NCBI RefSeq assembly: GCF_900115615.1
Contig: NZ_FOXB01000021.1
Coordinates: 1 to 38,752, forward strand
Source: Hydrogenimonas thermophila
Lineage (GTDB): Bacteria; Campylobacterota; Campylobacteria; Campylobacterales; Hydrogenimonadaceae
Length of the DNA: 38,752 nucleotides
Direction of reading: 5' to 3'
Under the pieces are notes generated by a model. It did not search any database and had not been told where the DNA came from. It was given only the letters and a program-made list of their open reading frames with translations. Both the position numbers and the translations under genes were made by a program. How positions within the stretch are numbered: the first letter of the stretch is position 1; the number at the start of each line of letters is the position of its first letter. Of this stretch, positions 9,583 to 38,197 are shown piece after piece.

Positions 9583-12500
9583 TTAAATTTTTATACGATA
9601 CAAAACAGAATAGAGAAGTGGAACATAATAGAGATTTAAAATTGTTGCCCAGATCAAACCAAATCCAAGAGTAATTGCCATTGGCTGTAAGATAAGTGCT
9701 TGTCCTGAAGCAAAAAATATTAGTGATGATAGCCCTAAAACCGTTGTTAATGATGTAAGTAAAATTGGACGAAGTCTGAGTTTTGCTCTCTCAAGCAATT
9801 CATCCAAAGATTTTGCATTTTTAATAAAATCGATCATAATAAGACCATCATTTACAACAACTCCACAAAGACCAACTATACCAATAAGACTAGGCATTGT
9901 AAGGTTTATCCCCATAACTTTATGACCTACTAAAACACCTAAAATAGATAAAGGTATAGTTGAAAGTGTAATAAGAGGCAAAGCAATTGAGTCAAACATC
10001 CAAACAAGTGCAACAAAAATAAGAAATATAGCAATAACCGCTGATCGTATAATTTCAGTTTTTACTCTTCTATTCTCTTTCTCTTCACCTTTTATATCAA
10101 CAGATATACCATTTTTTTCAAAATCTTCAAAAATTGGAGAGAGTTTTTCCATCACTTCTGCTGATGTAATAAACTTTTTATCTAATGATGCATAAACAGT
10201 ACTTACTCGTTTACCATCTACTTTAAATATTTTTGCCAAGCTTTCTTTTCTCTCAATATCTACAATATCTTTTAAAGATACAAAACGGAACTGACCTGGT
10301 ACTTGCAATTCAAAATGTTCAAATCTTTTCAGACTATCTTTGTTACTATCTTGGAGTCGAATACGTACAAGACCTTCATCATTAAACATTTTGGCATACT
10401 CACCCTCTAAAAAGAAAGGTTGTAGTGCCTGAACTAAAGCTCCTTCTGTAAATCCAAGCTCCTGACCATATCGGTTGATTTTGAGTTTATACTCATCAAC
10501 TCCAGGCTTTGCATCATCTGTAATATTCTCTACTCCTTTAATCTTTCCAAGAGCCTTTTTAACACGTTCAAGAGCAACTGCTACTTTTTTGCTTTCTCCT
10601 CCAAAAGAGAGTTCTATATCACTTTTTACAATTCCAGCTTGCGGAACAATGACATTAATCTCTTTAAAAAGCTTACCAAACTCATCACTTCTTTTCTTAA
10701 ATGGCTCAACAAGCTTTTGAATCTGAGCTGCAATCTCTTGAGCTGAATGTTTACGAATCATATCGCTACTGTCATATTCAGGGCTTAAATATGGATTTAT
10801 ATATTTATCAAAAAAGTTTTTAGGTACCGGTTCGTGCAAATTGACAAAAAGATGAAAAAGATTGTCAGCATGTTCACCTTTATTATTGCTGTCAACCTTA
10901 AGCCCTATAACAGCAGTAACAGAAGACACATCCTCTTTTGATAGATTATCTAAAAGTATTTTCTCAAGTTTAGATACAATTTTTTCATTATCTTCAAGGT
11001 CATTGTTAATATCAACTTCACCATTTACATAGATTTGTGTAGTATCAAATTCAGGAAAGAGTTGAAAACGACTCTGCGAAGCAAAAACCCATGTAGTAAA
11101 TAGTATAGAGCCAACAAGTAAAGGAAGAGAGATGTACTTATAGCGAATTAATGGTGAAAGAATTGCACGATAAATCTGATAATTTTTTTGCCAAAAACGC
11201 TGAGAAAATCCTAACTCTTTTGTAGGTTTAAGCATATCTTTTGCATGAAGTGGCAGAAAATAGAATGCTTCAAAGAGTGAGCTTAGTAACAAAATTGTAA
11301 TCATAACAGGTAATACTTTTATAAACTCACCAAGTTTTCCACTTAGCATCAAAAGTGGTAAAAATGCAAACACTGTTGTCATAGTTGCCGTTAAAACAGC
11401 CGGGAACATCTCAACTGATCCCTTGACGGCAGCCTCTTTAGGCTCCATACCCTCTTCAATGTACCTGTATATATTTTCAGCTACTACTATTGCTTCATCT
11501 ACCAACATTCCAAGAGCTATTAAAGCTCCAAGCAGTGTAAGCATATTTAAACTGTAGCCAAGTATTTCAGATGCTACAAGACCTATCATAAAACTGACAG
11601 GTATTCCTATTGCTACAACTAAAGCAATACGGGCATTGACAAAAAGAAGCATAGATAAAAAGACTAAACCAAGACCAAAAATGATGTTTGAAACTACAGT
11701 ATTAAGGCGGTTTTTTATCCATATAGATGTATCAGTATAAACATCAAATGTAAACTCAGGGAACTTTTCTTTGTAGTTTGCAAGTAATTTACGAATATCT
11801 TTTGAAAGGGCAATTGCATTACCCTCTTCTGATTTGCTTACAGAAATAGATACATTTTTTATGCCGTTGTAGTGTGAAATCTCCGTTGGATCGCTTAATT
11901 GAAATTTCACTTCTGCAATATCTTTTAGAAATAGAGTTTTACCATCAATATGAAGTATTGTATTTTTTAACTCTTTTAAATCTTTTTCACCATTTATAGT
12001 ACTTATAAAAAGATGTTGACCGCGTTGTTTGACTGCACCCACAGGAAAAATGGAAGCAAGTTGCGAAAGAACACTCACAACAGAATGTTTTGAAAGTCCA
12101 AGAGCATCAACTTTTGCACTATTTATGAATATATCCAATTCATCATCTGCATCACCATAAATGACAATATCACTTAAATCTTTGAAACCGGCTAAATCAC
12201 TCTTTATGGCATCAGCAACTTTCAATAACTCTTTTTTGGGTTTGTCTGCAGCAACAGCTATTATGACAAGCGGAAAGTTTCTTTTAGCTATTTTTGCTAC
12301 TGGCTCATCCATATCACTTGGAAGGTCACGCCGTATATTTGAGATGATATCTTTTGCATCACTTAGTGTTATATCTGGATCATTGCCAGGTTTGATGTCT
12401 GCACCTATTATGAATGATCCATTTTTTATAACAGACTCTATGACATCTATTTCACTTAAATTTTTCAGACCATCTTCTATGGTATGGACTGCCATTTTAT

Positions 12501-12684
12501 CTAGCAGATCAGCACTTGCACCTGTGTAGTGTCCTGTAATAGTTACCCTATCAAGATTGCCCGGAGGAAAAATCTCTTTTGGAATGTTGATATATGCAAA
12601 AACTGAAAGAGCTAATAAAAAAGTCAAGAAGATATGGTTTAGGATCGGTTTTTCTATTGCAAATCTTATAAATTTTTCTATCAT
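9583..12684 (-). CDS. RND-superfamily efflux permease without adjacent partners
   Basis: The 1033-residue protein has the duplicated RND layout: an N-terminal membrane helix, a periplasmic loop (about 40-325), a helix bundle (about 325-480), a second loop, and a final bundle (about 880-1030). Transmembrane helix 4 carries GMLVDEAIVVAEN, with Asp396-Glu397 where AcrB has the Asp-Asp proton-relay pair; the second bundle has GVVVNDGLIMIDF in the matching helix. It resembles the hydrophobe/amphiphile pumps more than the heavy-metal class. No membrane-fusion or TolC-type gene is adjacent, so it must borrow partners, act alone, or transport lipids or other envelope substrates. It begins 9 bases after the FtsL-like gene and probably shares its transcript. 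Substrate unknown. Confidence 0.88.
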   Translation of the reverse strand: MIEKFIRFAIEKPILNHIFLTFLLALSVFAYINIPKEIFPPGNLDRVTITGHYTGASADLLDKMAVHTIEDGLKNLSEIDVIESVIKNGSFIIGADIKPGNDPDITLSDAKDIISNIRRDLPSDMDEPVAKIAKRNFPLVIIAVAADKPKKELLKVADAIKSDLAGFKDLSDIVIYGDADDELDIFINSAKVDALGLSKHSVVSVLSQLASIFPVGAVKQRGQHLFISTINGEKDLKELKNTILHIDGKTLFLKDIAEVKFQLSDPTEISHYNGIKNVSISVSKSEEGNAIALSKDIRKLLANYKEKFPEFTFDVYTDTSIWIKNRLNTVVSNIIFGLGLVFLSMLLFVNARIALVVAIGIPVSFMIGLVASEILGYSLNMLTLLGALIALGMLVDEAIVVAENIYRYIEEGMEPKEAAVKGSVEMFPAVLTATMTTVFAFLPLLMLSGKLGEFIKVLPVMITILLLSSLFEAFYFLPLHAKDMLKPTKELGFSQRFWQKNYQIYRAILSPLIRYKYISLPLLVGSILFTTWVFASQSRFQLFPEFDTTQIYVNGEVDINNDLEDNEKIVSKLEKILLDNLSKEDVSSVTAVIGLKVDSNNKGEHADNLFHLFVNLHEPVPKNFFDKYINPYLSPEYDSSDMIRKHSAQEIAAQIQKLVEPFKKRSDEFGKLFKEINVIVPQAGIVKSDIELSFGGESKKVAVALERVKKALGKIKGVENITDDAKPGVDEYKLKINRYGQELGFTEGALVQALQPFFLEGEYAKMFNDEGLVRIRLQDSNKDSLKRFEHFELQVPGQFRFVSLKDIVDIERKESLAKIFKVDGKRVSTVYASLDKKFITSAEVMEKLSPIFEDFEKNGISVDIKGEEKENRRVKTEIIRSAVIAIFLIFVALVWMFDSIALPLITLSTIPLSILGVLVGHKVMGINLTMPSLIGIVGLCGVVVNDGLIMIDFIKNAKSLDELLERAKLRLRPILLTSLTTVLGLSSLIFFASGQALILQPMAITLGFGLIWATILNLYYVPLLYSVLYRIKI

Positions 12685-12693
12685 ACTTCTACT

Positions 12694-31208: not shown

Positions 31209-32420
31209 ATGAAACACCAGTATCTGAAATCTCAACCAGATGAAAAAGGTTACTTTGGTAAGTATGGTGGTGCTTTTATACCTCCTCAACTTGAAGAAGA
31301 GTTTGAGAGGATAACAGAAGCTTATATGAAGCTTAGAAAGTCTGAAGAGTTTATATCTGAATTGCGTCGAATTAGAAAATATTACCAAGGTCGCCCTACT
31401 CCGGTTTATCATGCAAAACGGCTTAGTGATGCAGTTGGTGGCGCTCAAATATACTTTAAACGTGAAGATTTAAACCACACCGGTGCTCATAAATTAAACC
31501 ACTGCATGGCAGAAGCATTATTGGCAAAAAGTATGGGTAAAACAAAACTCATAGCTGAAACAGGTGCAGGTCAGCATGGTGTTGCATTGGCTACCGCATG
31601 TGCATATTTTGGTCTTGAATGCGAAATTCATATGGGTGAAGTTGATATAAAAAAAGAGCATCCAAATGTTGTTAGAATGAAAATTTTAGGAGCAAAGGTT
31701 GTACCTGCAACTCATGGACTAAAAACATTAAAAGAGGCTGTCGATTCAGCATTTGAATCATATCTTGGACAGTTAGATAGAGCTATGTATGCCATTGGTT
31801 CAGTTGTTGGTCCTCACCCATTTCCTTTAATGGTACGTGATTTTCAGAGTATTGTTGGTATAGAGGCACGAGAGCAGTTTCTTGAGATTACGGGCGATCT
31901 GCCTGATCATGTAGTTGCTTGTGTTGGCGGAGGCAGTAATGCTATGGGAATATTTAGCGGTTTCATAGATGATCCAGTTGAGCTATATGCAGTAGAACCA
32001 TTAGGTAAAAGTACAAATCTTGGTGATCACGCTGCAACTCTTGAGTACGGAAAAGAGGGAGTTATTCACGGTTTTAAATCTATTCTGCTACAAACAGAAG
32101 ATGGTGAACCTGCTCCTGTACACTCCATTGCAAGCGGTCTTGATTACCCTAGCGTTGGACCAGAACATGCACACCTTCACGATATTGGCAGAGTTCATGT
32201 AAAAGGTGCTACAGATGAAGAGACAGTAGATGCTTTCTATGCAATAAGCCAATATGAGGGGATCATTCCAGCATTAGAGAGTTCTCATGCAATTGCATAC
32301 GCCTTAAAACTGGCAAAAGAGGTACCATATGACTCTATTTTGGTAAATCTTTCAGGTCGCGGAGATAAAGATATAGATTATGTTGTAGATACTTTTGGCG
32401 TTAGAGAGTGGAAGCCATAA
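31209..32420 (+). CDS. trpB: Tryptophan synthase beta chain
   Basis: TrpB condenses indole with serine to tryptophan using PLP. The 403-residue product has all main landmarks: [22 protein letters not shown] with PLP Lys95, [10 protein letters not shown] with the catalytic Glu117, the phosphate-binding [21 protein letters not shown] with the conserved Asp of the active site, and the C-terminal LSGRGDKD. The sequence is of the TrpB1 type that pairs with TrpA, not TrpB2. trpA is not in the window and the flanking genes are unrelated, so trp genes are dispersed here. It has its own -10 and a good ribosome site. Confidence 0.96.
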
Positions 32421-32451
32421 TAGTTTGCTAAATAATCTTATATAATAAACT

Positions 32452-32460
32452 TGTTATAAT
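32452..32460 (+). promoter_or_regulatory. Extended -10 promoter of the metal efflux operon
   Basis: TGTTATAAT at 32452-32460 is a perfect extended -10, about 40 bases before the first gene of the efflux operon. A further TATAAT lies at 32441-32446. TTATAA recurs at 32454 and about 32482, a loose repeat around the predicted start that might mark an operator. Confidence 0.6.
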
Positions 32461-32501
32461 CACTCATTAGAATAAACTGACTTATAAAAGAAGGAGAGCG
32501 T

Positions 32502-32807
32502 GTGTTTAAAAAGGCGATTCAAACGTTACTGTTAATGTCGCTTTTTTTAAACATCACACACGCTGCTGTTATTTCATTAATTGATAGATGCGATCATCAA
32601 ACACTGCAAGAATATATTATGGAAATAGACCAAGGAAGTGATTGCGGTGACTTATGTGATGCACACTATATATTTCATCTCAATGCTATTGCTACAACAC
32701 CGATAGTAATTATTCCTAAGTTTTCATACAGTGTAATAATAGACTACTATCAAAAAGAGTATATTCCCCCATTTCTTGAACCATCTTACCGTCCTCCTAT
32801 AGTTTAA
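32502..32807 (+). CDS. Small CzcI-like periplasmic protein heading the metal operon
   Basis: The GTG at 32502 follows AAGGAGAG. The 101-residue product has a signal peptide (about 1-21, ending NITHAA), then a mature part with four likely metal ligands close together: CDH near 29-31, and DCGDLCDAH with Cys and His near 48-56. The C-terminus is proline-rich (YIPPFLEPSYRPPIV). Size, leader, Cys/His segment and the Pro-rich tail recall CzcI-type proteins that precede czcCBA in Cupriavidus and relatives, thought to bind metal in the periplasm. Direct sequence similarity is low by eye, so the link rests on architecture and position. Confidence 0.6.
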   Translation: MFKKAIQTLLLMSLFLNITHAAVISLIDRCDHQTLQEYIMEIDQGSDCGDLCDAHYIFHLNAIATTPIVIIPKFSYSVIIDYYQKEYIPPFLEPSYRPPIV

Positions 32808-32881
32808 CTCTTTATTTAAACCCTAAAAACAGTGTTAAATATCTCCATTCATAAGGAGAACTCTACATAAAAAGGATGGCA

Positions 32882-34054
32882 ATGAAATATTTAATGACAA
32901 TATTTTTATGCACTATTTCAAGCTTTGCTGCAAGTTATATGGAGTTTGAAAAAAGTGTTATTCAAAATGCTCCATTAATGAAAGTATATAGACTTGAAAA
33001 GAGTACTTCTAAACTTAAAGAGCGTATTGCATTACGTTACGACAACCCCTCTTTTGAATGGGAAATAAACAATTTTAGCAGTGACAATAGCAAAAATGAC
33101 AATGGCTTCAAATCTGCAATTTCACAACCAATCAGAACTTTTGGATATGAAAAAAGCCTAAAAGAGTATGCCAATACTCTTAATTTGTTGGCCAAAAAAG
33201 GTTACGAAAAAAACCGTGCAAAATTTCTTGTAGAGCTTCGTCGCTATTTTACAGAGTATGTAAAAGCAGTTCATACAAAAGCTCTTTTAAAAGAGGAGAT
33301 CGCACTTTATAAAAGGTTAGAGTCTATTGCAAAAACACGTTTTGAAAATGGTGCTATAAGCCGTACCAAGTTAATGCAAGCATCATTACAACGAGTATCT
33401 GCAGAAACAAAACTGTTTGAAATTGAAAGAGAGATAGATGCACGATACTATGACTTAATGAGCATTACAGGAGTAAAGAAAAGTATTCCACTTGATGCTA
33501 ATTTTATTTACCCAGTCAACTATGTAACTATTAACGACGTAAATCTACAAAATGCCGAACTAGATGCTCTTGAAGCAGTGCAAAAGCAGTATGAAGCTGA
33601 AGCTAAGATGCAAAATAGAAAACTAAAAACTTACAGACTATTTACTACATATGAAGATGATATAGACCAATCAATCGTAACTTTTGGAGCCGGAATTGAC
33701 TTGCCACTTTTTAATCAAAACAGAGAAGAGTATCAACTGGCAAAAATCAAAGCACAGAAAGCATATTTGAAAAAAGTGCAATTAAAAAACTCTCAACAAA
33801 AGAGACTAAAATCACTCATAGATCAATTATTAATACTAAAAAAAGAGTATATGGCACTAAAAAAGAGAGCCTTGAAAGAGCAAGAGTTACTGACTCTATT
33901 TGAAGAGGGTTACCGTACAGCACAAAGCTCACTGATAGACATCATACAAACACAACGCAGTTTAATTGGTACTAAACGAAAACTGCTAGAGACAGAGTAT
34001 TTGACAAATCTTTACCATATCGAAATTGATTATCTGAAAGGAAGATTAAAATGA
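32882..34054 (+). CDS. TolC-family outer-membrane channel of the metal efflux system
   Basis: I prefer the ATG at 32882, six bases after AAAGGA; the ATG at 32876 lies on that site. The product is about 390 residues with a signal peptide (MKYLMTIFLCTISSFAAS) and two repeats of the TolC/CusC outer-membrane efflux domain, rich in long helices (for example FENGAISRTKLMQASLQRVSAETKL-type and its second copy EEGYRTAQSSLIDIIQTQRSL). The paired GxxSxxDxxxxQ-like pattern is typical. Together with the adaptor and RND genes it forms a complete tripartite exporter. No lipidation cysteine follows the signal peptide. The stop overlaps the next ATG by four bases. Confidence 0.85.
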   Translation: MKYLMTIFLCTISSFAASYMEFEKSVIQNAPLMKVYRLEKSTSKLKERIALRYDNPSFEWEINNFSSDNSKNDNGFKSAISQPIRTFGYEKSLKEYANTLNLLAKKGYEKNRAKFLVELRRYFTEYVKAVHTKALLKEEIALYKRLESIAKTRFENGAISRTKLMQASLQRVSAETKLFEIEREIDARYYDLMSITGVKKSIPLDANFIYPVNYVTINDVNLQNAELDALEAVQKQYEAEAKMQNRKLKTYRLFTTYEDDIDQSIVTFGAGIDLPLFNQNREEYQLAKIKAQKAYLKKVQLKNSQQKRLKSLIDQLLILKKEYMALKKRALKEQELLTLFEEGYRTAQSSLIDIIQTQRSLIGTKRKLLETEYLTNLYHIEIDYLKGRLK

Positions 34055-35139
34055 AACAATTTATTCTTTTACTAACAGCCTTCATATATTTACAAGCCCA
34101 AGAGATAGTTGTTGAAAAAGCAAAACTGCAAAGCTTTGGAAAACTGCTAATTACCAATGCAAAAATAGTACAACTATCCAATCAACAACAGCAAATTGTC
34201 TCACGCCTTGGAGGTCATCTTGAAGAGTATTACGTTAAACCGGGAGAGACAGTAAAAAAAGGTGCTCCTATTGCAAAAATTAAGTCATTAGAGCTTTCAA
34301 AGATGACAGCCGACTTTATAGCAATTGGTAAAAAGATAGATGCGGCTCGTGAAAGATTCTCTTCAACAAAAAAACTGTTTGAAAAAGGGTTGGCATCAAA
34401 GCAAGACTTAAACAAAGAACAAATAGCCCTTGCATCAATTGAAGCAAATAGAAACAGCCTTGCTTCACAACTTAAATCTCTTGGAATAAACCTAAATAGC
34501 TTAAAAGGTGCAACAGATACTCTACTCATTTATGCACACGCCGATGGATTGGTCAGCCGTTTGCTAATTCCACTGCATACAAACCTAAATGCTCAAACAC
34601 CAATTGTTTCATTAGTGCAAAAAAGTGGCTACTATGCCATTGCCTATATCAGTGTAAAAGAGGCATTGAATCTTCCAAAAGATATTCAAGGCAGACTAAG
34701 TATTGGCAATCTAAGTTTTAAGTGCAGATATATGTATCTACTTCCAAAAATAGATGAAGAGACACAACGAGCGCAAATGCTCTTTTGGATTGAAAGCAGT
34801 AACAAACCGCTTCTTTTAAATGCCTTTGCCCAAATGGAGATAAATCTACCGCCATTTAAAAAATATGTTGCCATAAAGCGTTCAGCATTAACAATGTTCA
34901 AAGGTGAGTGGGTTGTTTTCATTCCAAAAAAAGAGGAAGATCACGATGAGCATAATGAAAAAGATGAGCATCATCACGAAGAGATCCCATATGAGATACG
35001 TGTTGTAGATGTCATAGAGAGATTTGAAGATAAAGTTGCCGTAAAAGGGTTAAAAGATGGCGAAGAGTATGTTGCTGACGGAGTCTATTTTGTCAAATCA
35101 GCGCTTTTAAAGTCTGAAATTGGCGGACACGGTCATTAA
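34051..35139 (+). CDS. Periplasmic adaptor (membrane-fusion protein) of the metal efflux system
   Basis: The 362-residue protein has a signal peptide (about 1-16, ending LQAQ), a lipoyl/barrel-sandwich half (VSRLGGHLEEYYVKPGETVKKGAPIAKI), a helical hairpin (about 83-142), the second lipoyl half (YAHADGLVSRLLIPLHTNL) and beta-barrel domains. A segment at about residues 295-311 is packed with His, Asp and Glu (five His), and the C-terminus ends GGHGH; both are likely metal-binding. Its length and lack of the CusB N-terminal methionine cluster suggest divalent metals such as zinc, cobalt, cadmium or nickel over copper or silver, but that is inference. The RND gene follows after 10 bases. Confidence 0.86.
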   Translation: MKQFILLLTAFIYLQAQEIVVEKAKLQSFGKLLITNAKIVQLSNQQQQIVSRLGGHLEEYYVKPGETVKKGAPIAKIKSLELSKMTADFIAIGKKIDAARERFSSTKKLFEKGLASKQDLNKEQIALASIEANRNSLASQLKSLGINLNSLKGATDTLLIYAHADGLVSRLLIPLHTNLNAQTPIVSLVQKSGYYAIAYISVKEALNLPKDIQGRLSIGNLSFKCRYMYLLPKIDEETQRAQMLFWIESSNKPLLLNAFAQMEINLPPFKKYVAIKRSALTMFKGEWVVFIPKKEEDHDEHNEKDEHHHEEIPYEIRVVDVIERFEDKVAVKGLKDGEEYVADGVYFVKSALLKSEIGGHGH

Positions 35140-35149
35140 GGATGCATAA

Positions 35150-38100
35150 ATGAGACAATTTTTTAAATGGCTTATTCGCTACAAATTTCTTGTTATTGCC
35201 CTGTTTGTTGCAATTGCAGGTTTTGGATATCAGGCATATCGTGAAATTCCTGTAGATGCTTTTCCAGATATTACCCCAAAACAGGTTGTAATCTATACTG
35301 AAAGCCAGGGAAATTCAGCTGGGGATATTGAAAAACTAATAACCTACCCCATAGAATCGGCAATGGCTGGATTGCCTGGAGTTAAAATGATATTGAGTAA
35401 CTCTATATTTGGTCTCTCTTATGTCTCAATCTTTTTTGAAGATGATTATGACACTTACCTTCTGCGCCAACTGGTAACTGAGCGTCTAAACAGTGTTGAT
35501 ATTCCAAAAGGTTGGGGAAAACCAGTTATGGGACCTAATACAACAGGTCTTGGACAGGTCTTTTGGTATCAGATAAAAGATAATAGCTCTAAACTAAGCC
35601 TTACGGAGCTTAAAGAACTGCAAGAGTACGTTGTAGCACCGATGCTTAAAGCAGTTAACGGTGTTGAAGAGGTAATTGGCTGGGGCGGATTTGAGAAGCA
35701 GTATGAAGTAGTGATTGACCCTAAACTGTTGCAAGCACTGGGTGTAACATATGATGAAATCATAGAAGCTCTTCAAAGAGCCAACCAAAGTGCCGGCGGG
35801 CAGTACTTGGAAATGAATAGAGAGCAGTATCTCATTCGTGGCAGTGGATTTTACCAGAGTATTAACGATATAAAAAATACAGTAGTAAAAACAAAAGAGC
35901 TTAAAGCTGTTACAATTGAAGATTTAGCAGAAGTGCGCATTGGAAAAGCTCCACGATTTGGTGCTGTAACAATTGATGGTAAAGAGGCAATGTTTGGAAT
36001 GGTACTTCAACGAAGCGGTACAAATGCTGCTAAAGTTGTTGAAAGAATCAAGGAAAAACTTCCTTTAATTAACGCTGCATTGCCTGAAGGGGTGGAGATT
36101 CATACCATCTATGATCGTACCGAAATCACAAATAAAGCAGTTGCTACTATGACAAATGCACTTCTAAGTGGTACAATTCTTGTAGCAATAGTTCTTTTTC
36201 TATCTCTTTTTGAGTTACGAAGCGCATTCATTGTCATCATCTCTCTTCCACTATCACTGCTTATAGCCTTTTTATTAATGAAACAGTTTGGTATTAGTGC
36301 CAATTTAATGAGCCTTAGCGGTCTTGCAATAGCCATAGGAATGATTGTTGACGGAACAATCGTTGTTGTAGAAAATAGCTTTAGGCTTATGCACGACAAT
36401 CCTAAAGCAAATAAACTAGAGATTATTGCCCAAGCTTCAGCAGAAGTAGCTAAACCGGTAGTTTTTGCACTGCTCATCATTGCTGCTGTATTTATTCCGC
36501 TTCTAAGCCTATCTGGACTTGCAGGCAAACTATATGCACCGATGGCAATTAACATAGTCTTTGTAATGCTTGGCTCATTAGCAGTTGCAATGCTGTTGGT
36601 TCCGGTACTTAGTTTTCTTATGCTAAAACCTACAAAGCATAGAGTAAGCCCACTCATAATGGCTATAAAAAAAGTCTATACACCACTACTAAATTTTTCG
36701 CTTAAACACGCCAAAACTGTAACTGCATTTGCTTTCATACTCTTTGGAGTAACTTTCTATCTTCTTAGCCAACAAGGGCGTGAATTTATGCCTGAACTAA
36801 ATGAAGAGTCGATTATGTACCGTGTTATTGCAATTCCAGGTACAGCATTGAGCCAAAGCATACAAAGTTCTAAAGAGATTGAAACATATATACTTCAAAA
36901 CTACCCAAATGAGGTAAAAAGTGTACTTAGTATGATTGGACGAAGTGAAAAGGGTGAAACAGCACAGGCAAACTATATGGAGATTCTGCTTACTCTTCAA
37001 CCAGGCATTAAAAACCTAAAGAGACTTGCCAAGCGTATGACACACGAACTCCAAGAGCATTTTAACTATGTACAATTCATCCCTACCCAACCAATAGGAA
37101 TGCGAATAGAAGAGTTACTTGAAGGGGTTAAAGCTGAACTTGCAGTAAAAATTTATGGAGAGAATCAAAAGATTTTAGAGACTATTGCATCTCAAATTCA
37201 ACAAACTCTAAGAGGCATTGAAGGATTGGAACGTACTGAAGTTGAAACACAACTTGGACAGGCTCAAATTACAATTCAACCAAACTTTTTGGCACTATCA
37301 AGGTATGGAATCGGTGTAGATGAAGTTATGCGCATCATTCGCCACGGCATAGGAGAAGAGCCTGTGACTGAAAAAATCGAAGGTGTAAGACGCTTTGGCA
37401 TTGTTGCAAAAATAGAAGATGCAAAAAAAGATTTCAAAACATTAAGATCCATAATGATTAGAAGTAAAAGTGGAAAAATGGTGCCATTAAATGAAGTGTG
37501 TGAAATAAGCATCGTTCAAGGTCCGTCATTTATCAAGCGTGAAGATTTAAGCAGATATATGGTTATTTCAATGGATGTTGAAGGTCGAGATATCGCCTCA
37601 TTTGTCAAAGAGGCAAATAAAAAGATTCAGCAATCTGTATCTATTCCTAAAGGGTATTACATCCGTTGGGCAGGTGATTTTAAAAATATGCAAGAGGCTA
37701 CAAAAAAGCTGATGATCATCATTCCTATAACCATTGGTCTTATAATCCTTCTTCTATATACAGCTTTTAACTCGTTCAAAAAATCTCTTCTTATTCTAAT
37801 GGGTGTACCACTTGGACTAATTGGCGGCATTATAGCTCTTCTTATTAGCGGTGAGTATCTTAGTGTATCGGCTATTGTTGGTTTTATTGCAATATTCGCT
37901 ATTGCTATACTAAATGGCATTGTGCTAGTCAGTTTCATAGATGAACTTAGAGAAAAATTTCCAGATGTCAAACTTGAAACAGTTCTTAAAGATGCAACAT
38001 TACTGCGTCTTCGACCTGTTTTGATGACAGCTTTTACGACACTATTTGGCATTTTGCCACTGCTCTATGCATCAGGAGTCGGTAGTGAAATTCAGTACCC

Positions 38101-38197
38101 GTTAGCAGTTGTCGTTACAGGTGGGATTATAAGCTCTACACTCTTAACACTGTTAGTACTTCCTTCACTTTACCTTCTTTTTTATAAAAAAACTTGA
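35150..38197 (+). CDS. Heavy-metal RND efflux pump (CzcA/CusA family)
   Basis: The 1015-residue pump has the duplicated 12-helix RND layout and opens like the heavy-metal class (FPDITPKQVVIYTESQG, PIESAMAGLPGV). Helix 4 reads GLAIAIGMIVDGTIVVVEN, with Asp401 and Glu408 matching two of the three proton-relay acids of CzcA; the third (the Asp of DFG in CzcA) is Ala395. In my alignment from memory, of the CusA methionine triad only one Met is retained (YMEILLTL); the others fall on Glu (RIEELLEG) and Ile (RYGIGVDEV). This argues against a standard copper/silver pump. Substrate is therefore a divalent metal by inference. It is the last gene of the operon. Confidence 0.9.
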   Translation: MRQFFKWLIRYKFLVIALFVAIAGFGYQAYREIPVDAFPDITPKQVVIYTESQGNSAGDIEKLITYPIESAMAGLPGVKMILSNSIFGLSYVSIFFEDDYDTYLLRQLVTERLNSVDIPKGWGKPVMGPNTTGLGQVFWYQIKDNSSKLSLTELKELQEYVVAPMLKAVNGVEEVIGWGGFEKQYEVVIDPKLLQALGVTYDEIIEALQRANQSAGGQYLEMNREQYLIRGSGFYQSINDIKNTVVKTKELKAVTIEDLAEVRIGKAPRFGAVTIDGKEAMFGMVLQRSGTNAAKVVERIKEKLPLINAALPEGVEIHTIYDRTEITNKAVATMTNALLSGTILVAIVLFLSLFELRSAFIVIISLPLSLLIAFLLMKQFGISANLMSLSGLAIAIGMIVDGTIVVVENSFRLMHDNPKANKLEIIAQASAEVAKPVVFALLIIAAVFIPLLSLSGLAGKLYAPMAINIVFVMLGSLAVAMLLVPVLSFLMLKPTKHRVSPLIMAIKKVYTPLLNFSLKHAKTVTAFAFILFGVTFYLLSQQGREFMPELNEESIMYRVIAIPGTALSQSIQSSKEIETYILQNYPNEVKSVLSMIGRSEKGETAQANYMEILLTLQPGIKNLKRLAKRMTHELQEHFNYVQFIPTQPIGMRIEELLEGVKAELAVKIYGENQKILETIASQIQQTLRGIEGLERTEVETQLGQAQITIQPNFLALSRYGIGVDEVMRIIRHGIGEEPVTEKIEGVRRFGIVAKIEDAKKDFKTLRSIMIRSKSGKMVPLNEVCEISIVQGPSFIKREDLSRYMVISMDVEGRDIASFVKEANKKIQQSVSIPKGYYIRWAGDFKNMQEATKKLMIIIPITIGLIILLLYTAFNSFKKSLLILMGVPLGLIGGIIALLISGEYLSVSAIVGFIAIFAIAILNGIVLVSFIDELREKFPDVKLETVLKDATLLRLRPVLMTAFTTLFGILPLLYASGVGSEIQYPLAVVVTGGIISSTLLTLLVLPSLYLLFYKKT

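Follow-up and report, generated by a model that had tools for sequence, protein, structure and literature searches.

A short open reading frame (ORF), in the following called the leader, precedes a set of metal efflux genes in Hydrogenimonas thermophila. Within the window, by which we mean the whole stretch of 38,752 nucleotides that was analysed, the locus comprises the following features.

31209-32420: PALP-family (trpB-like) gene, 5' of the leader
32441-32446 and 32455-32460, + strand: two TATAAT -10-like boxes in the gap between trpB and leader (hexamers only)
32491-32496, + strand: Shine-Dalgarno AAGGAG of the leader, read from the sequence
32502-32807 (stop included), + strand: leader gene, 101 aa, GTG start, from ORF reading and homologues
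32502-32564, + strand: Sec-type signal peptide, residues 1-21, by inspection of the sequence, with presumed cleavage after THA
32643-32678, + strand: putative metal site C48xxxC52xxH55xxxH59, with C52/H55/H59 as family core (alignment A2)
32679-32789, + strand: divergent spacer of fixed length from H59 to RPP, delimited by spacing and linker identity
32790-32798, + strand: codons CGT CCT CCT of R97-P98-P99, proposed slow or arrest site ([KR]PP in 57/60 homologues)
32808-32881, + strand: junction between leader and outer-membrane factor (OMF), with the Shine-Dalgarno AAGGA (32872-32876) predicted to be sequestered
32876 or, likelier, 32882 to 34054, + strand: OMF (TolC/CzcC-like), PF02321 1.1e-23
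34051-35139, + strand: periplasmic adaptor (CzcB/CusB-like), HlyD_D23, PF16576 7e-10
35150-38197, + strand: RND pump, ACR_tran, CusA/CzcA family, TIGR00914 6e-276

The leader protein reads MFKKAIQTLLLMSLFLNITHAAVISLIDRCDHQTLQEYIMEIDQGSDCGDLCDAHYIFHLNAIATTPIVIIPKFSYSVIIDYYQKEYIPPFLEPSYRPPIV and is encoded by a single-copy gene in the H. thermophila genome. By inspection, it begins with a hydrophobic signal segment ending in THA followed by A. It contains three Cys (positions 30, 48 and 52) and four His (20, 32, 55 and 59) and closes with the tail YIPPFLEPSYRPPIV, whose end is RPPIV. The original prediction, a short exported Cys/His protein with a Pro tail ahead of channel, adaptor and pump genes, is confirmed for 32502-32807, the genes behind it carrying OEP, HlyD_D23 and ACR_tran domains on the same strand. 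The OMF begins 68-74 nt 3' of the leader stop, 32882 being the likelier start because of the Shine-Dalgarno spacing. The adaptor also hits TIGR01730 (6.8e-24, under the cut-off of that model), and its C-terminal segment is His-rich. A second RND permease in the window (9586-12693, - strand) is 22% identical to the metal pump.

Pfam and NCBIfam scans of the window leader gave no model match, and no solved-structure relatives were found at E values up to 1. The AF2 model shows residues 2-27 as a confident helix, a helix at 49-60 with low confidence and no confident fold of the mature leader (block pLDDT about 56-70, pTM 0.30). The TATAAT boxes 5' of the leader are a possible operon promoter; TATAAT is not more frequent in the window than expected by chance, and a scan for promoters and terminators gave sites no more numerous than in shuffled sequences. 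On the + strand of the leader-OMF gap, no terminator-like site was found.

The leader was found in 10/18 genomes of the taxonomic family of H. thermophila, a conservation that speaks against a chance ORF. In the order Campylobacterales, 398 genomes were searched with a profile built from the nine rows of alignment A1. After removal of one of the 61 leader matches (L077:9180, E 0.0016, without the motif), 60 homologous leader ORFs were retained, and 54/398 genomes were positive. The row G113:930162 (E 0.003) was dropped, the corresponding locus L098 containing no leader, and a second stretch of a single G384 ORF was also removed from the count. Among 84,980 species genomes, one alignment-derived pattern gave 44 matching stretches, 21 of them confirmed; with this one pattern, the confirmed stretches came from records titled Hydrogenimonas, Sulfurovum, Campylobacterales or Epsilonproteobacteria. 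A single-sequence scan of species-genome contigs with the window leader gave no match, and a plasmid collection contained one relative, in Sulfurovum mangrovi. One homologue (L082:904-1266) is without a normal signal peptide and has kept a KPPIA end; it is possibly decaying or misassembled.

Conserved residues were read from alignment A2, which holds 55/60 leaders and omits three near copies (L055, L058, L077) and two leaders with uncertain starts (L075, L082). In these 55 rows L11, H59 (55/55), P98 and P99 are invariant and L10, H20, C52 and H55 near-invariant, with C52 and H55 each kept in at least 90%. Because of these residues, C-x2-H-x3-H together with the terminal PP is the core of the family. 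Conservation of the ligands in homologues, which the original prediction had made a point of, holds for C52, H55 and H59. CxxxC is found anywhere in 39/60 leaders and at the usual 45-47 spacing in 37/60.

The PP ends 2-5 residues ahead of the stop in 60/60 leaders. It is preceded by K in 40, R in 17, E in two and H in one, and by A or G in none of the 60 (the window has YRPP). PP stands in the last seven residues of 60/60 leaders versus 1/480 other genes of the same loci, and 0/480 of these other genes have [KR]PP in the last eight. The distance from H59 to PP is 39 residues in 45/55 leaders, 38 in six, 40 in two and 42 in two, such that the last His lies 38-40 residues from PP in 53/55, with the caveat that profile-based detection could favour a fixed spacing. 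Mean pairwise identity amounts to 12% in the linker (64-96), 43% in the core and 78% in the last four residues; the distance from H20 to C52 varies between 26 and 36 residues. Seven profile matches stop short of PP (G065, G051, G238, G077, G154:C93, G154:C59, G194), and all seven have KPP or HPP at the usual position.

Concerning the genes that follow, the next one on the same strand begins 35-446 nt past the leader stop in 58/58 loci with sequence; the other 2/60 leaders run into contig ends. A BLAST-recognised OMF is located downstream of 49/60 leaders, at some of these loci beyond an intervening small gene. Behind 7/60 leaders come an OMF-sized ORF and then an RND that is less closely related (38-54% identity); Pfam confirms two OMFs and one adaptor among these seven loci. 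Leader L067:11901 heads MFP-RND only, and L054:10856 heads a PepSY-like gene and a P-type ATPase. Since this last leader heads a P-type ATPase, the leader tracks metal export rather than one pump, and it accompanies several exporter types.

Some loci show rearrangements or insertions. At L054:8534-11158, the leader, PepSY-like gene and P-type ATPase adjoin a second leader heading an RND operon. At L067:6929-16468 the leader is duplicated, one copy standing before the OMF and the other before MFP-RND, and the operon is apparently split by an ORF resembling, by eye, a PD-(D/E)XK transposase-type nuclease. An extra small gene lies between the leader and the next large gene in 22/58 loci. An exported PepSY-like protein is inserted between leader and OMF at L054:10460-10771, L072, L091 and similar loci, the two such proteins scanned scoring under the Pfam cut-off. 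The inserted small protein is by eye DUF302-like in L079 and L083 and cytochrome-like in L016.

The association was also approached from the pump. Comparison of the window RND protein with the 398 genomes (E up to 1e-300) yielded 54 genomes, and leader and window-type pump co-occur in 40 genomes (Fisher p 4e-31; the genomes are related). On the same strand, 35/54 pump genes have a profile-detected leader no more than 4.5 kb upstream, and 8/54 lie at contig ends (G006, G007, G008, G015, G056, G197, G223, G372). The other 11/54 have in the same place an ORF overlooked by the profile, which is short (called at about 100-130 aa) and starts with a signal sequence. Each of these contains Cys and His, and the ends are KPP in ten and TPP in one; three of the eleven are near-identical. 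C-x2-[HC]-x3-H stands 38-39 residues ahead of PP in 8/10 scored ORFs, and L153, the ninth, has a His at 39. A leader-type ORF is hereby present at 46/46 readable window-type pump loci, and the link to metal pumps elsewhere that had been anticipated proves to be tight.

At the CusA/SilA Met positions the window pump has R, Y and E. CusA uses these three Met to bind Cu(I)/Ag(I). TM4 of the window pump reads AIGMIVDG versus DFGIIIDG in CzcA. A CusA-like pump type was rejected, the Met triad being absent, and the DFG of CzcA is absent from TM4 as well. Since the pump is without the CusA Met triad, its metal may not be copper, and the residues do not favour copper(I) as the substrate. In Hydrogenimonas relatives a Cus-type RND operon adjoins the leader-pump operon (L011:6-4534, L013, L018, L019, L015); the Met triad was checked in L011 alone, where the neighbouring Cus-type pump keeps all three Met.

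The leader-OMF junction of the window has a predicted fold of -17.3 kcal/mol (z -2.11; 4/200 shuffles as good), in which the PP codons CCTCCT pair with the OMF Shine-Dalgarno. Most junctions measure 35-85 nt; the longest one folded has 223 nt. The mean pairing probability of the Shine-Dalgarno is 0.78 in leader junctions (n=45, junctions up to 120 nt, loci related) versus 0.53 in control junctions (n=41; p=2e-6). With the gap shuffled it is still 0.72-0.73, the observed value being higher in 29-30/45 (p=0.006). Sequestration of the OMF Shine-Dalgarno is predicted to be above control junctions and only modestly above shuffles. Upon removal of a ribosome footprint at PP the pairing falls; the overall mean is then 0.51, and the window value drops from 0.77 to 0.37. 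Shortening any sequence tends to lower pairing, and this result is an illustration, not proof.

Leaders with comparable features are known from other bacteria. CutF of Rhodobacter capsulatus, in the passages of PMC9973294 and PMC8456105 that describe it, has a Sec signal and, each of them required for control by Cu, CxxxC, a spacing of about 45 residues and a C-terminal PP; Cu-dependent CutO is lost when the Cys or the tail is mutated, a stem-loop hides the Shine-Dalgarno of the next gene, and the protein controls a multicopper oxidase. The corresponding passages of PMC9973294 report no strong stalling by the CutF tail alone and count CzcI among CutF-like proteins, though it is without the PP motif. 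The leader resembles CutF in its length below 150 aa with an N-terminal export signal (101 aa; signal by inspection), its PP within the last 15 residues (P98-P99 in the window; 60/60 homologues), its mid-protein CxxxC (C48xxxC52, plus H55/H59) some 45 residues from PP and its same-strand downstream gene within 1000 nt across a short junction. As with CutF-like proteins, the downstream metal genes include OEP/RND. Unlike in CutF, K/R immediately precedes PP and the stop follows after 2-5 residues, its core ligands are C/H/H instead of C/C, and it heads exporter genes, whereas CutF acts on an oxidase. The nearest profile tested for CutF is DUF2946, to which the leader has no detectable homology. 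DUF2946 membership was rejected, as PF11162 matches neither the window leader nor the nine members scanned, and profile-profile comparison with DUF2946-like genes of the same genus gave a probability of 5.5%.

CruR, as characterised in the pertinent part of PMC9426467, needs RAPP and CXXC, tolerates only limited spacing change and represses an importer via Rho termination; arrest by the RAPP peptide in vitro is among the results given in PMC12992588. The leader is like CruR an exported small uORF product heading a metal operon, with a metal-ligand motif, a C-terminal PP and constrained spacing; unlike CruR it has no RAPP/RGPP, and the CruR target is an importer controlled through Rho. SilD (C. 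metallidurans pMOL30, before silCBA-type genes) is an exported CxxxC leader with PP(P) directly before OMF-MFP-RND, as here. In SilD more residues separate PP from the C terminus (RPPPRPLAILHCCFRI), and the profile-profile probability with the leader is 0.5%. By analogy, the leader appears CutF-like in its way of working, though not necessarily in descent. The main text of PMC9973294 does not mention Campylobacter, Helicobacter, Epsilon or Sulfurimonas, while its supplementary lists may hold entries, and our literature search found no paper on this Campylobacterales leader.

From the PP end, the fixed spacing, the link to metal exporters, the Shine-Dalgarno pairing and these likenesses we consider it rather probable that the leader is an exported nascent-chain metal sensor, CutF/CruR-like, which regulates the pump genes. 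The leader would be translated first and its signal peptide would dock on SecYEG. While the ribosome translates [K/R]PP, with 2-5 codons left before the stop, the chain would have its C/H site ~39-50 residues back and, judged by published tunnel and membrane lengths, near the periplasmic side of the translocon. Metal on C48/C52/H55/H59 would alter the pull on the chain and make the pause at PP longer or shorter. A paused ribosome would keep open the junction that is otherwise predicted to bury the next Shine-Dalgarno, and the pump genes would be translated when metal is present, if we infer the sign correctly. The finished leader peptide probably has little further role. Against this sensor reading stand a motif that is [K/R]PP rather than the proven RAPP/RGPP, a CxxxC that is not universal (39/60 leaders), Shine-Dalgarno burial only slightly above shuffles with some junctions long, and sequence comparisons that detect no homology to DUF2946, SilD or CzcI.

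Leaders before metal pumps, such as CzcI and SilD, have so far been poorly explained. Here, an order-wide family preserves exactly the features of a translational sensor and the remainder drifts, and the question is directly testable with few point mutations. If the sensor reading is true, vent and sediment bacteria would set efflux by sensing periplasmic metal during leader synthesis, possibly metals other than copper. More tentatively, the leaders might represent a separate sensor class, with a C-x2-H-x3-H site, a 39-residue ruler and a stop-proximal [K/R]PP brake, as the obligatory head gene of a Campylobacterales CzcA-type pump; we hold this for doubtful. It would be the first such class to respond to a divalent metal, for example zinc, nickel, cobalt or cadmium, and to be tied to an efflux pump, and the CzcA-type pump headed by it would probably not be one for Cu(I).

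The export signal, the conserved C/H ligands and the operon position would also suit a pump accessory that binds metal as a stable periplasmic protein, either a CusF-like chaperone or a CzcI-like quencher, with RPPI docking onto adaptor or OMF; a quenching of CzcCBA by CzcI is reported in the relevant section of PMC10127602. For docking by a flexible tail, however, the spacer would not have to keep its length to about +/-1 while the linker falls to 12% identity, nor would the tail have to finish 2-5 residues before the stop. The AF2 model, with its low scores for the mature part, and the leader heading a P-type ATPase speak in the same direction, and we judge a stable accessory to be unlikely.

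A nascent-chain leader might also act through Rho-dependent termination in the manner of CruR, or might monitor export instead of metal, as SecM, VemP and MifM do according to the passage on them in PMC9973294. The modest excess of Shine-Dalgarno burial over shuffles would fit either; for Rho control, however, the junctions are on the short side. Besides PP, no mature residues are better conserved than the core Cys/His, and the genes that follow the leader encode metal exporters, which makes a pure export monitor unlikely. Altogether, we regard this pair of possibilities as improbable.

The comparison with czcI before czcCBA, drawn in the original prediction, was right as to position and export and wrong as to family. 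CzcI of C. metallidurans shares with the leader the place before czcCBA-type genes, export, CxHE and DCxxCH; unlike the leader it has HxGHHxHxH and no PP end, and from the CzcI signature YCxHE...HxGHHxH only CxH(E) is common to both. The NCBIfam models NF045614/NF045615 recognise genuine CzcI (5.2e-51, 2.1e-6) and gave 0 matches among 9 + 3 leader proteins. Profile-profile probability was 3.5% with a wide alignment and 27.6% with a narrow one, the latter match being confined to the signal peptide and CxHE. With no curated model match, a low profile-profile probability and HxGHHxHxH absent, CzcI membership was rejected; a diverged CzcI, for which the shared place before OMF-MFP-RND, the CxHE after the signal peptide and the narrow-profile value would speak, is scarcely credible, the common stretch being mostly signal peptide. 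The other possibility raised there, a parallel invention, comes nearer than kinship with CzcI. The better parallel is the CutF/CruR/SilD-type leaders, in which the Pro tail is the working part.

Helicobacter pylori, of the same phylum, has CrdA (HP1326, crdAB-czcBA), which is likewise secreted and encoded at the head of a metal pump operon. The description of CrdA in PMC9182242 gives a CopC-like, Met-rich protein without Cys or His; the window leader, unlike this, has three Cys and four His, and on that published description CrdA identity was rejected.

A second exported leader, DUF2946-like, carries HHHxDLKxHxDCxxC and ends in a true RAPP or RSPP. It is present in the same genus and in another family (G032), and the genome to which the window belongs gave no match. 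The DUF2946-like gene of the same genus matches PF11162, over the cut-off in 1/60 genomes. Its loci are L099, L100, L103, L104, L106 and L107 (near 1492-1790, - strand), where this leader mostly heads a porin-like outer-membrane protein (weak PF07396 in L103).
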